Assembly (NCBI GenBank): GCA_030550225.1
Contig: JAUQPV010000003.1
Span: 1 to 33,085, forward strand
Length of the DNA: 33,085 nt
Direction: 5' to 3'
From: Acidobacteriota bacterium
GTDB taxonomy: Bacteria; Acidobacteriota; HRBIN11
The notes beneath the pieces were generated by a model that saw only the letters and a list, made by a program, of their open reading frames with translations, had not been told where the DNA came from and did no database searches. Within the stretch, counting starts at the first letter, position 1. Each line of letters opens with the position of its first letter. This document shows, piece after piece, positions 7,233 to 31,188 of this stretch. The translations under genes and the position numbers were made by a program.

Positions 7233-7661
7233 ATGGGTAAGAAGCGGGAGGTCGCTACCGTACGGTTAATCTTGGAAGGCGGGAGCGCCACGCCGGGTCC
7301 ACCGGTCGGCCCGGCCCTGGGTCAGCACGGCGTGAACCTGATGGAGTTTGTCAAGACCTTTAACGCCTTGACGGCCTCGATGCGGGGCCAACAAGTCCGG
7401 GTCCTGGTCCATATCTACGAGGACCGGACGTTTTCCGTCGAGCTGAAGGGTCCGGTGACCTCATTTCTGTTAAAGCAACTGGCCGGGATCGTGAAGGGCT
7501 CGGGGACGCCGAATAAGGAGAAGGTGGGTAAGATCACGCGGGCCCAACTGGTCGAGCTGGCCCGTCAGCGGATGAAGGATATGAACTGTGATTCCCTCGA
7601 GGCGGCTGTCCGGACCCTGGAGGGTCAGTGTAAGAGTATGGGCATCGCCGTCGTGGATTAA
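7233..7661 (+). CDS. rplK: 50S ribosomal protein L11
   Basis: LILEGGSATPGPPVGPALGQHGVNLMEFVKTFNA. Confidence 0.97.
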   Translation: MGKKREVATVRLILEGGSATPGPPVGPALGQHGVNLMEFVKTFNALTASMRGQQVRVLVHIYEDRTFSVELKGPVTSFLLKQLAGIVKGSGTPNKEKVGKITRAQLVELARQRMKDMNCDSLEAAVRTLEGQCKSMGIAVVD

Positions 7662-7762: not shown

Positions 7763-7794
7763 GCCTTACTGCCGTATTGCCTAATGGCCTAATC
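7763..7794. repeat. Opposite-orientation octamer array before rplA: GCCTTACT|GCCGTATT|GCCTAATG|GCCTAATC
   Basis: Four contiguous 8-nt units, inverted relative to 7667-7706. Confidence 0.85.
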
Positions 7795-7812
7795 CTGTGC
7801 CGGAGGATTGCG

Positions 7813-8508
7813 GTGGGGCGTAAATACGCGGCGGCGCTGGCGAAGGTCGAGGCCCGGCCGTACCGTCTGGAAGCGGCCCTGGCTCTGCTGAAGGAGATCG
7901 CTTTTGCTCGATTCGATGAGACGGTCGAATTGGCCTTGCGTCTGGGGGTCGACCCCCGAAAGCCCGAGCAACAGGTGCGTGGAAGCGTCGTCCTCCCGCA
8001 CGGAACGGGCAAAGCCCGGCGCGTCCTGGCCATCGCCGTCGGCGACAAGGCCGTCGAGGCCCGCCAGGCCGGGGCCGATTTCGTCGAAGGCCCCGAGGTC
8101 GTCGAGCGGATCGAGCAAGGGTGGCTCGACTACGATGCCGTCGTCGCCACGCCGGACATGATGCGCTTTTTGGGACGCGTCGGAAAGGTCCTGGGTCCCC
8201 GAGGCCTGATGCCGAACCCGAAGGCCGGTACGGTCACCCAGGACATCGGTCGGGCGATCCGAGAAATCAAGGCCGGTCGTGTGGAGTTTCGGACAGACAA
8301 GACGGGTAACGTCCACATTCCTGTCGGGAAGAAGTCCTTCCCGGTCGAGCACCTGGTCGAAAATGTCCTGGCGGCCGTCGAAGCCGTCCTTCGGGCGAAG
8401 CCCTCGACGGCCCGAGGGAAGTACCTCCGGCGGGCCTACGTGAGCACGACGATGAGCCCAGCCTTGGAGTTGGACCTGAACGACCTGCTGGCCCGTCTGC
8501 GGGTGTAG
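7813..8508 (+). CDS. rplA: 50S ribosomal protein L1
   Basis: [12 protein letters not shown]..., [33 protein letters not shown] start at 7813 with CGGAGG RBS preferred over ORF start 7777. Confidence 0.95.
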
Positions 8509-8510
8509 GG

Positions 8511-8550
8511 CCATTCGGGAATTCGGCAGTTCGGCAGATGGGCAGTTTGT
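8511..8550. repeat. Octamer array after rplA: CCATTCGG|GAATTCGG|CAGTTCGG|CAGATGGG|CAGTTTGT
   Basis: Five 8-nt units starting 2 nt after the rplA stop. Confidence 0.85.
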
Positions 8551-8644
8551 CAAAGAGCTTAGAGCAGAGAGGGCAGAGGATGCGGGGCGCTGGACTCGTA
8601 GCGCTTTACCCTATGCGCTGGGCTCTTGGCCATGGGCTTACCCA

Positions 8645-8684
8645 CCGAACGGCCGGATTCCCGAACTGCCGAATTGCCGAATGA
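8645..8684. repeat. Inverted octamer array before rplJ: CCGAACGG|CCGGATTC|CCGAACTG|CCGAATTG|CCGAATGA
   Basis: Five 8-nt units, complementary to 8511-8550. Confidence 0.85.
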
Positions 8685-8697
8685 TGGAGTCCTGACG

Positions 8698-9648
8698 ATG
8701 CGTGTCCGACCCAACCGGTTGAAGAAGGAAGAGTGGGTCCAGTCCTTTCGGCAGGAAGTCCTGCAGTATCCGGCTGTCCTCTTGCTGGCGCCCCAGGGCG
8801 TCTCGGCCCGAGAGGACCTGCAGATCCGGCGTCGCATCAAGGCCTTGCAGGCCCACTATCGGGTCGTCAAGAACCGTCTCGCCCGGCTCGCCTTCCAGGG
8901 GACGCCCTTCGAGAAGCTAAGCGACGCCCTCCGGGGGATGACGGCCGTCGCCTATCATACGGACGGGGTCGCCCTCGCCAAGTTGGTTCGGGACCTCATG
9001 AAGGAATACACGCACCTGGCCTTTAAGGCGGCCGTCGTCGAGGGCCAGCTCTTTACCGACAAGCAACTGGACTTATTGATCAACCTGCCGTCGAAGGAGT
9101 CGGCCCGGGCCCAACTGTTGGGCCTCTTCCAAGGTCCGGCGGCCCGGATGGTCCGGCTTCTGGCGGCTCCGCTTCAGCAATTTTTAGCCGTCTTACATCA
9201 GGCCCAAGCCCAACGGGCTCAAGAGCCTGCACGAGAAGGAGGTGGTCCCATGGCCGAGCTGACGAAGGAGCAGGTCATCGAGTACCTGAGTAGCCTGACC
9301 GTCACCCAGCTCGTCGAACTCGTCAAGGACCTCGAGCAACGGTGGGGTGTCCAGGCGGCGGCCGCCGTGCCGATGGCGGTGCCTGTCGCCGGCGGGGTCC
9401 CCGCCGGGACGACCGAGGAGGAGAAGGTCGTCACATACAACGTCGTTATCAAAGACGCCGGTCAGCAAAAGGTCCAACTCATCAAGGTCCTGCGGGAGAT
9501 CTTCCCGGAGCTGGGCCTGAAGGAAGCGAAGGCCCTGGTCGATGCGGCGCCCAAGACCATCAAGGAGGGCCTTACGCGGGAAGAGGCCGAGGACCTCAAG
9601 AAGAAACTGGAGCAGGCGGGCGCCACGGTCGAGATCACGTCCAAGTAA
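8698..9648 (+). CDS. rplJ-rplL: L10-L7/L12 composite ORF (rplJ and rplL in one uninterrupted frame)
   Basis: L10 domain MRVRPNRLKKEEWVQSFRQEVLQYPAVLLLAPQGVS..., then without stop ...AQEPAREGGGP-MAELTKEQVIEYLSSLTVTQLVELVKDLE (L7/L12). Codons read directly across 9181-9252 contain no stop. Confidence 0.9.
   Translation: MRVRPNRLKKEEWVQSFRQEVLQYPAVLLLAPQGVSAREDLQIRRRIKALQAHYRVVKNRLARLAFQGTPFEKLSDALRGMTAVAYHTDGVALAKLVRDLMKEYTHLAFKAAVVEGQLFTDKQLDLLINLPSKESARAQLLGLFQGPAARMVRLLAAPLQQFLAVLHQAQAQRAQEPAREGGGPMAELTKEQVIEYLSSLTVTQLVELVKDLEQRWGVQAAAAVPMAVPVAGGVPAGTTEEEKVVTYNVVIKDAGQQKVQLIKVLREIFPELGLKEAKALVDAAPKTIKEGLTREEAEDLKKKLEQAGATVEITSK
9250..9648 (+). CDS. rplL: 50S ribosomal protein L7/L12 (probable internal initiation, in frame with L10)
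   Basis: AAGGAGGT Shine-Dalgarno at 9236-9243 followed by ATG at 9250; complete L7/L12 NTD, Ala/Val-rich hinge and CTD. Confidence 0.88.
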   Translation: MAELTKEQVIEYLSSLTVTQLVELVKDLEQRWGVQAAAAVPMAVPVAGGVPAGTTEEEKVVTYNVVIKDAGQQKVQLIKVLREIFPELGLKEAKALVDAAPKTIKEGLTREEAEDLKKKLEQAGATVEITSK

Positions 9649-9696: not shown

Positions 9697-12600
9697 ATGA
9701 GCCAGTCCGTATTGGAACGATACCGCCGCACGGAAAGCGGGCGTTACTCGTTTGCCCGCATTTCGTCGGACTTGCCGCTCCCCCACCTGATGGAGCTCCA
9801 ACGCCGTTCGTACCAGGAGTTCCTTCAGATGGACCTCCTGCCCGAGGAGCGCCAGGACGTCGGCCTCCAGGCCGTCTTTAAGCAGATCTTCCCCATCGTC
9901 GACTACCGGGGCATCTGCCAGCTCGACTTTGTCGACTACACGGTCGGCGTGTGGGAGTGTCTCTGCGGTCACCTGAAGGGCCTCGAGTACCTCCGGACGA
10001 CCTGTAGCGGCTGTGGGGCCCGGATCCCCGTCAACCCCGAGGAAGGCGACAGCGTCGTGTGCCCCCAGTGCGGCACACTGAACCGGGAAGTCCTCCAGGT
10101 CTGTCCCAAGTGCCAGACGTACGTCCACCTGAAGAATCGCTACACGGACCGGGAGTGTAAGGAGCGGGGCGCGACCTACTCGGCCCCCCTGCGGGTCCGC
10201 TTGCGACTGTCCCTGTTCGAGACGCCCGAGGACCGGGAGGCGGGCCGACCCAAAGAGGTGAAAGAACAGCTCGTTTACTTCGGGGAGATCCCCCTGATGA
10301 CCGAGTTCGGGACCTTCATCATCAACGGGACCGAGCGGGTCATCGTCAGCCAGCTTCACCGGTCACCGGGGGCTTACTTCCGTCAGATCGGCCGGCGGTC
10401 CTACCTGGCCGAGGTCCTTCCCTATTACGGGGCCTGGATCGAGCTGATGTACGACCGTCGGGGCATCCTGCATGCCCGCATCGACCGCCGGAAGAAGGTC
10501 CCGGGAACAGTCCTCTTGAAGGCTTTTGGCCTGGAAAGCAACCAGGCGATCCTCCAGCGCTTCTACCAGATTCATCACGTCCGTCTCCACGAAGAAGCCA
10601 TCGAGGTCGAGCTGACGGACCGGCTGGTCAACGTCCGGGTCCTCCAGGACGTCGTCCATCCGAAAAAGAACACCCACGTGATCGTCCCAGCCATGGAGCG
10701 GTTGACCCGACCCCGCCTGGAAGAGGCCCTGGCGGCCGGTGTCAAGACCGTGATGGCCCGGACCCGACTCCTGTTCCGTCGAGCGTACTTGGCCGAGGAT
10801 GTCGTCGACCCCACGACCGGGGAGGTCCTGGCCACGGTCGCCTCCGAGGTGACCCCGGAGCTGGTCGAAACCCTGATGAAGAAAAAGATCCTCGACCTGG
10901 CCGTCGTGTTCCCGGACCGGGAGCCCATCGGCGACACGCTGATCCTGACGATGGCCAAGGACAAGACCCAGGACCGTAAAGAGGCCCTCCGGGAGATCTT
11001 TAAGAAGCTTCGGCCTGGGGACCAGGCGACGACGGAGACGGCCCGGATCTTCTTCGAGGAACTCTTCTGGAACCCCCGGCGGTACAGCCTGGGCCCCGTC
11101 GGCCGCCTGAAGCTGAACACGAAGCTCGGGATGGACAAGCCCCTAACCCAGACGACCTTGGACCTGGACGATATCTGTCGGATCACGGAATACGCCCTGA
11201 AACTCCAGCGGAACCTCACCCAGGTCGACGACATCGATAGCTTGGCCAACCGGCGGGTCCGGGCCGTCGGCGAGCTCCTGCAAAACCAGCTCCGGGTCGG
11301 CCTGAGTCGGATGGAGCGGTACATCAAGGAGCGGCTGAGCGTCCTGACGGACCTCACCGACGTCATGCCGGGCGACCTGATCAACACCAAGATGGTCATG
11401 GCCTCGGTCCGGGAATTCTTCGCCACGGGCCAGCTTTCCCAGTTTATGGACCAGACGAATCCCCTGGCGGAGATTACCCACAAGCGACGGCTCAGCGCCC
11501 TCGGCCCCGGCGGCCTGAACCGAGAGCGGGCCGGTTTTGAGGTCCGGGACGTTCACCCGACCCACTATGGCCGGGTTTGCCCCATCGAGACGCCGGAAGG
11601 CCCGAACATCGGCCTGATCGTCTCCCTGAGCTGTTATGCCCGGGTCAACGAGTTTGGCTTCATCGAGAGTCCCTACCGGAAGGTCGAGGACGGTCGGGTC
11701 GTCGACTACGTGCGCATCCTCCATCCCGGGGGTTCGCCCTTCGAGAAGGGCCAAATCCTGCCCCGCGAGGAGGTCGACCGGGTCAACCAAGACTTGACAA
11801 AAAAGCGGAAACAGCCGGCCCGGTACGAGATCCACATCTGGTACATGACGGCCTGGGAGGAAGCCCAGTACGTCATCGCCCAAGCGACGGTCCCCTTGGA
11901 CAACCACGGCCGCATCATACCGGACTTTGTCATCGCAAGGCGTGCCGGCGAGATCGCCCTCGTCCCCCGGGAGGAGGTCCAGTTCATCGACGTCTCGCCC
12001 AAGCAGGTCGTCAGCGTCTCGGCGAGCCTGATTCCGTTCCTCGAACATGACGACGCCAACCGGGCTTTGATGGGCTCGAACATGGAGCGGCAGGCCGTAC
12101 CCCTGATGAAGCCTGAGCCGCCCATCGTCTCGACGGGGATGGAGGCCATCACGGCCCGGGACTCGGGCGCCGTCTTGGTCGCCGAGGAGGACGGCATCGT
12201 CGAGGCCGTCGACGCCACCCGGATCGTCGTGCGCTCCCGCCGGTCCCCAGGGGAGGACCGGGTCCGCATTTACAAGCTCCGAAAGTTGGAGCGCTCGAAC
12301 CAGGGGACGTGCATCACCCAACGGCCCATCGTCCGCCCGGGTCAAGAGATCCGCAAGGGCCAGGTCATCGCCGACGGTCCGGCGACGGCCGAGGGCGAGC
12401 TGGCGTTGGGTCGGAACGTCTTGGTCGCTTACATGCCCTGGCACGGCTACAACTTCGAGGACGCCATCGTCATCAGCGAGCGCCTCGTCGAGGAAGACGC
12501 CTATACGTCGATTCACATCGAGGAGTTCGAGGTCCAAGTCCGGGAGACCAAGATCGGCGAGGAACAACTGACCCGGGATGTCCCGAAGGCGACGCCGGAC

Positions 12601-13977
12601 CAGCTCCGGCACCTGGACGACACGGGGATCGCCGTCATCGGTTCGTACGTCAAGCCGGGCGATATCCTCGTCGGTAAGGTGACGCCCCAGCCGGAGACGG
12701 TCCAGACGCCGGAGGAGCGCCTCATCGCCGTCATCTTCGGCGAGAAGGGGAAGTCCTTCACCGACTCGTCCCTGCGGGTCCCGCCCGGCGTCGAGGGCGT
12801 CGTCGTGGACGTCAAGATCTTCGCCCGCCGGGGCGTCGAAAAAGACCCCACGATGCGGGAACTCGAACGGATCGAGAAGGAGAAGATCCAACGGGACCAG
12901 GAAGACCAGGTCCGCATCCTGCGGGAAAACGTGAAGCTTCAGTTGGCGACCCAGCTCGCCGGGGCTGAGCTCCGGGAGGCCCTGCGGGACATCCACGGCC
13001 GAGAGATCTTCCCGAAGGGTCACGTCCTGCGAGCCGAGGACATCGAGGGCCTGGAATTCTTAGACCTGGAGAATCTCAAGCTCCGGCAAGCGGCGGCCCA
13101 GAAGACCCTCCGGGACGTCCTCAAGCGGTACCACCAGCGACTGAAGGTCCTTCGGAGCATTTACGAGGAACGGCTGAAGCGCCTCGAACAGGGCGACGAG
13201 CTCCCGCCCGGTGTCCTCAAGGTCGTCAAGGTCTACGTAGCCATGAAGCGGCGTCTGCAGGTCGGTGACAAGATGGCCGGCCGGCACGGTAACAAGGGCG
13301 TCGTCGCCATCATCCTCCCCAGGGAAGACATGCCGTTCTTGCCGGACGGGACACCGGTCGACATCGTCCTGAACCCCTTGGGCGTACCGTCCCGGATGAA
13401 CATCGGCCAACTCCTGGAGGCGAATCTGGGCTGGGCCGCTCATGTGCTCGGCGTGCGCTTCGAGTCGCCCGTCTTTGACGGCGCTCGGGAAGAGGACATC
13501 CGGGCCCTTCTGAAGGCGGCCGGCCTGCCCGAAGACGGCAAGACGATCCTCTACGACGGACGGACGGGTGAGCCTTTCGAACAGCGGGTCACGGTCGGCT
13601 ATGCCTACATGATGAAGCTGGTCCATATGGCCGAGGATAAGATCCACGCCCGGGCCACGGGTCCCTACTCGCTGATCACCCAACAGCCTCTGGGCGGTAA
13701 GGCCCGCTTTGGCGGCCAGCGCCTCGGCGAGATGGAGGTCTGGGCCCTGGAGGCTTACGGCGCCGCTTACGCCCTCCAGGAGATGCTGACCGTCAAGTCT
13801 GACGACATCGACGGCCGTCTGCGACTGTTCCAGAGCATCCTTCGGGGTCACCCCCGGATCGAGCCGACGATCCCCGAGTCCTTCCGGGTCCTGATGAAGG
13901 AACTGCAGAGCTTGGCGCTGGACGTCGAGCTCATCTACCAGACACCGTCCGAGGAGGTCCGGGAGGCGGCCTCGTAA
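9697..13977 (+). CDS. rpoB: DNA-directed RNA polymerase subunit beta
   Basis: [76 protein letters not shown]. Start at [13 protein letters not shown]. Confidence 0.98.
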
Positions 13978-14026: not shown

Positions 14027-14074
14027 GCCGAATGGCCGAACGGCCCGACTGCCGAATTCCCGAATTGCCCGACT
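14027..14074. repeat. Octamer array before rpoC: GCCGAATG|GCCGAACG|GCCCGACT|GCCGAATT|CCCGAATT|GCCCGACT
   Basis: Six contiguous 8-nt units abutting the rpoC Shine-Dalgarno (GGAGG). Confidence 0.88.
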
Positions 14075-31148: not shown

Positions 31149-31188
31149 CTTCGGGAATTCGGGAATCCGGGGTTCGGCCGTTCGACAA
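31149..31188. repeat. Octamer array CTTCGGGA|ATTCGGGA|ATCCGGGG|TTCGGCCG|TTCGACAA
   Basis: Starts 4 nt after the stop of the NtrC-like ORF. Confidence 0.85.

Follow-up and report, generated by a model that had tools for sequence, protein, structure and literature searches.

In bacteria, translation GTPases are recruited by the L10(L12)n stalk, which is made of separate L10 and L12 proteins. Some bacterial genes, among them infB, cheA and clpA, contain in-frame internal starts and give both a long and a short product. The stalk requires several L12 copies per L10 (PMC4592705, PMC4379515), and the L10 spine of Thermotoga maritima has three 10-residue L12-binding segments (PMC4379515). Herein, we describe an rplJ–rplL fusion in a 33,085-nt stretch of an Acidobacteriota genome (hereafter the window). 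The locus resembles those encoding the L10(L12)4 and L10(L12)6 stalks in its two protein families, its gene order (rplKAJL-rpoBC) and its long L10 spine helix. Elsewhere, however, uL10 and bL12 are separate proteins of separate genes, whereas here L10 is covalently continuous with one L12. The fusion is real, it is lineage-wide and it carries a nested start.

The two halves lie in a single open frame of 316 codons, from the ATG at 8698 to the TAA at 9646–9648, with no stop between them; the whole L10–L12 chain has a predicted mass of 35.0 kDa (Table 1). The program-listed open reading frame begins at TTG 8626, and ATG 8698 was assigned as the L10 start by homology. The initial annotation had claimed an uninterrupted frame from L10 into L12, and this was borne out. 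Both halves are whole by profile match. A complete uL10 domain was found at residues 9–172 (NCBIfam NF000955, E=4e-40), and the profile of the L10 part covers the full-length T. maritima L10 chain 1zav (4–180). A complete bL12 was found at residues 185–313 (NCBIfam TIGR00855, E=1e-35, model positions 1–124 of 125), with model position 1 coinciding with the internal ATG at 9250. The Pfam models for the L12 dimerisation domain (PF16320) and C-terminal domain (PF00542) were matched separately. We obtained the same reading of the linker as had been given before (...LHQAQAQRAQEPAREGGGP-MAELTKEQ), and the strong Shine-Dalgarno (SD) sequence described 6 nt before the L12 ATG was found as AAGGAGGT. 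A candidate junction-spanning peptide of the predicted chain is AQEPAREGGGPMAELTK.

Table 1. Features of the fused gene and its neighbours (positions in the window)
Feature	Position	Strand	Evidence
rplK (presumably L11), upstream	7233..7661	+	translation
rplA (L1), upstream	7777..8508	+	translation; homologue in every locus compared
fused rplJ-rplL (L10-L12), 316 aa	8698..9648	+	profile matches; frame open in 5/5 class genomes
L10 (uL10) part, residues 1-174, incl. C-terminal spine helix region	8698..9219	+	NF000955, AF2 helices, 1zav profile match
linker codons, residues 175-184, EPAREGGGP region	9220..9249	+	no stop in any frame, this genome
Shine-Dalgarno AAGGAGGT within linker	9236..9243	+	its GGA GGT codons give Gly-Gly in frame
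internal ATG, predicted start of free L12 (132 aa, 14.3 kDa)	9250..9252	+	TIGR00855 position 1; ATG in 5/5 genomes
N-terminal domain of L12 (dimerisation and L10 binding), residues 185-220	9250..9357	+	PF16320 E=2e-14
L12 hinge, residues 221-246, fast-evolving	9358..9435	+	low pLDDT; 9/26 aa differ from congener
factor-binding C-terminal domain of L12, with the TAA stop	9436..9648	+	PF00542 E=2e-25
rpoB, downstream	9697..13977	+	translation; homologue in every locus compared

Both the L10 and the L12 domains were recovered with normal folds in the AF2 model. The spine helix region was modelled as helices at residues 133–174, at low confidence; with the whole of 1zav 4–180 matched, the spine has the length expected for two to three L12 dimers. 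The AF2 monomer had low confidence across the junction as well, and gave no information on whether the L12 N-terminal domain packs against the L10 helix.

The fusion is common to the whole sampled class, a point absent from the reading in the initial annotation. It is uninterrupted in five out of five class genomes from three families, at 33–98% identity to the window protein: the window's own genome, two congeneric species (98 and 93%), and two further families (36 and 33%). Neither a stop nor a frameshift was found at the junction in these relatives, even at 33–36% identity. All five assemblies are probably MAGs, with a completeness of 87–95%, and an artefact of sequencing or binning might be suspected of having removed the stop. 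However, the frame is open in every one of five separate assemblies, which cover three families with linkers of different sequence, and the public record of the SKYB104 bin is fused as well. The open frame in these assemblies rules out assembly error, and we give an artefact practically no chance.

An AGGAGG-type SD and an ATG stand exactly at the L12 N-terminus in all five genomes. The SD core GGAGG has an identical phase in each family (GAA GGA GGT GGT CCC ATG, TCA GGA GGA GAA ATG and ATA GGA GGA ACA ACA ATG). The linkers themselves vary by family (EPAREGGGP, RPESSGGE and SEGKDIIGGTT; 17, 10 and 15 codons as delimited for the stop-codon test described below), and their common element is the Gly-Gly from the SD codons. 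The window linker is flexible, is modelled at low confidence and evolves fast, differing from its congener at three of ten residues, which would make it an easy protease target. If a protease cuts the chain there, the cell would obtain a normal L10, one extra L12 and an ordinary ribosome. Yet no cleavage motif is common to the three linkers beyond the Gly-Gly imposed by the SD, and the uncut tethered product could work as is. We consider such cleavage unlikely.

Profile searches with PF00542 and PF00466 each returned a single domain copy in every one of the five genomes; no separate rplL or rplJ copy was found by these searches in the five class genomes (87–95% complete). Thus, neither protein appears to exist in a stand-alone gene. 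Since L10 has no terminator of its own, its translation would give the L10–L12 chain, barring cleavage or ribosome drop-off. A programmed frameshift or drop-off near the junction could end L10 early, so that the fusion product would not accumulate, and in this genus a TTT-TTA stretch does lie close to where the spine helix ends. The stretch is not retained in the other two families, though, and two of the three linkers (f1 and f3) are free of stops in both of the other frames, which makes termination by frameshift unlikely; we regard this explanation as very improbable.

Outside the class, rplJ and rplL commonly share a frame by chance. Among ~1,900 genomes from six phyla, every in-frame rplJ–rplL pair (434/434; our count of rows spanning both domains) had at least one in-frame stop. 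These comprised 61 pairs in Acidobacteriota, 131 in the phylum of an Endozoicomonas, 83 in that of a Lachnospiraceae, 64 in that of a Patescibacteria bin, 61 in that of a Saprospiraceae and 34 in that of an Actinomycetota bin. In a species-level genome collection (78 loci), the only fused locus was that of Acidobacteria bacterium SKYB104, the named public relative with the fusion. A literature search found no description of a bacterial L10–L12 fusion, which is limited evidence of novelty as most subscription journals lay outside its scope. In a tree of L1, L10, L12 and RpoB built from 32 loci, the five fused loci grouped together with a low support of 38%, and the fused families were separated by more than one substitution per site. 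The simplest history would be a single loss of the rplJ stop in the ancestor of the class.

We next consider why the fusion persists. Our main explanation, which we hold to be probable, is that an ancestral stop loss created a tethered L10–L12 chain while free L12 came to be made from the internal start. A neutral explanation agrees with it on the anatomy and differs on the reason for persistence: the stop would have been lost by drift, and the shortness of the SD-bearing linker would have kept it from being regained; the tether, although translated, would have no function. When the linker bases were shuffled, the probability that all three linkers lacked a stop was ~0.23, so that stop-free linkers could arise by chance. 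Moreover, the end of the L10 helix and the L12 N-terminal domains sit together in the stalk complex, and a neutral fusion would join parts that adjoin anyway. On the other hand, 7–8 codons per linker are one substitution away from a stop, and three families more than one substitution per site apart are all open and in the same frame. With a factor of 1/9 for frame agreement, the compound chance falls to ~0.03, which is suggestive only. Selection on the linker deduced from missing stops alone was rejected as not significant (P=0.23); at this value the open state can be put down to inheritance, and selection keeping the fusion is only suggested. The neutral explanation thus has to be taken seriously, but in our judgement it is somewhat doubtful.

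The internal start bears on where free L12 would come from. The stalk needs several L12 copies per L10, so L12 has to come from a further source as well, and no other gene supplying it was found. At ATG 9250, the pairing energy with the anti-SD was −17.7 kcal/mol, compared with −5.9 kcal/mol at the rplJ start, and the pairing was stronger than at any of the 528 internal ATGs sampled in the same genome. In the other two families, the internal-start SD was among the best 5 of 579 and the best 10 of 596 internal ATGs (top 1–2%). The background in each case consisted of internal ATGs from sampled genome stretches. Free L12 (14.3 kDa) most likely originates at this internal start. RNA structure that would occlude the start was considered and rejected, since the z-scores were inconsistent across families (−1.5, +1.5 and +0.5). 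The SD at the rplJ start (window 8678–8700) is weak in this genus and strong in the other two families (−11.1 and −11.5 kcal/mol); the families may differ in how they set the L10:L12 ratio.

The initial annotation had proposed a fusion with a nested L12 start, acting as a hard-wired first stalk subunit or as a device for stoichiometry. The part of this proposal that concerns the gene holds, in that the frame is open and the SD and ATG are kept in three families. The two roles would follow logically from this arrangement, and we consider a functional reading of the fusion with its nested start likely.

On our main explanation, the ancestor of the class would have lost the stop of rplJ, after which rplJ was read in frame across the former ribosome-binding region and on into rplL. 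Ribosomes that initiate at rplJ would make the tethered L10–L12 chain, and those that initiate at the internal site would make free L12 in excess. As the SD phase codes for Gly-Gly in all three families, the ribosome-binding site would serve also as a hinge in the protein. The tethered L12 N-terminal domain and a free L12 would then pair on the spine helix of the same L10. The stalk would thereby consist of L10~L12 and three or five free L12, always an odd number, as opposed to L10 and 4 or 6 copies. An L10 of T. maritima length with three L12-binding segments allows one tethered and five free copies; with two sites, the numbers would be one and three. Judged from the sequence, one arm of the stalk is probably tethered for good in the ribosomes of this class. 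We are evenly divided on the fuller proposal of a covalently tethered stalk, in which one L12 fixed to the stalk base has a free L12 as its partner, the stalk never loses its last factor-recruiting arm, and L10 is never made without L12.

The surroundings of the fusion are those of the usual rplK-rplA-rplJ-rplL-rpoB-rpoC cluster; the product of the first gene is taken to be L11 from its translation. An Rfam scan of the window returned only tRNAs, with no L10-leader or other leader RNA in the rplA–rplJ gap (8509–8697). The repressor in rplJL autoregulation would here be the fused protein itself. Clusters of a short TTCGG/CCGAA-based unit (e.g. TTCGGGAATTCGGCAGTTCGG) were observed at window positions 8514–8535, 8645–8682, 14028–14065 and 31150–31178, four in the window and none in shuffles. 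These clusters flank rplJ and recur elsewhere in the genus (in L131 at 11329, 16765 and 16898). The congener G001 also has them upstream of rplJ, in different copy numbers, and they are almost missing from the examined stretches of the other two families. The unit may be an intergenic repeat, either mobile or generated by slippage.

A naturally tethered L10–L12 protein would offer a ready-made test of whether the stalk needs arms that can be exchanged, and it would bear on how cells fix the L10:L12 ratio. It also carries a warning for annotation, as a label of 'L10' or 'L12' in this class denotes half of a longer protein.

Compared with the bacterial stalk, the locus departs in one respect: L10 and L12 are not separate proteins, given the absence of a stop in five out of five genomes and of any other copy. 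The multiplicity of L12 may be retained, as the strong internal SD suggests an excess of free L12. A second comparison is with archaeal and eukaryotic P0 (L10e), a stalk-base protein that likewise has its own factor-binding tail. In the fused protein this tail is a bL12 C-terminal domain of bacterial type (residues 247–313), and it comes with the rest of a bacterial bL12, dimerisation domain included. The fused protein was rejected as a P0, since the archaeal L10 models scored far under their cut-offs (NF003099, 21.8 bits against 341; NF003095, 19.7 against 381). It would be a bacterial parallel to P0 and, if the tether is real, another route to the built-in arm of P0. Like infB, cheA and clpA, the fused gene has a conserved same-frame internal start with its own SD and a predicted short product. 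In contrast to those genes, what the internal start would yield is a complete ribosomal protein in its own right, one that is usually separate and is required in excess over the long product. In conclusion, we read the locus as a lineage-specific and apparently undescribed version of the bacterial L10(L12)n stalk.
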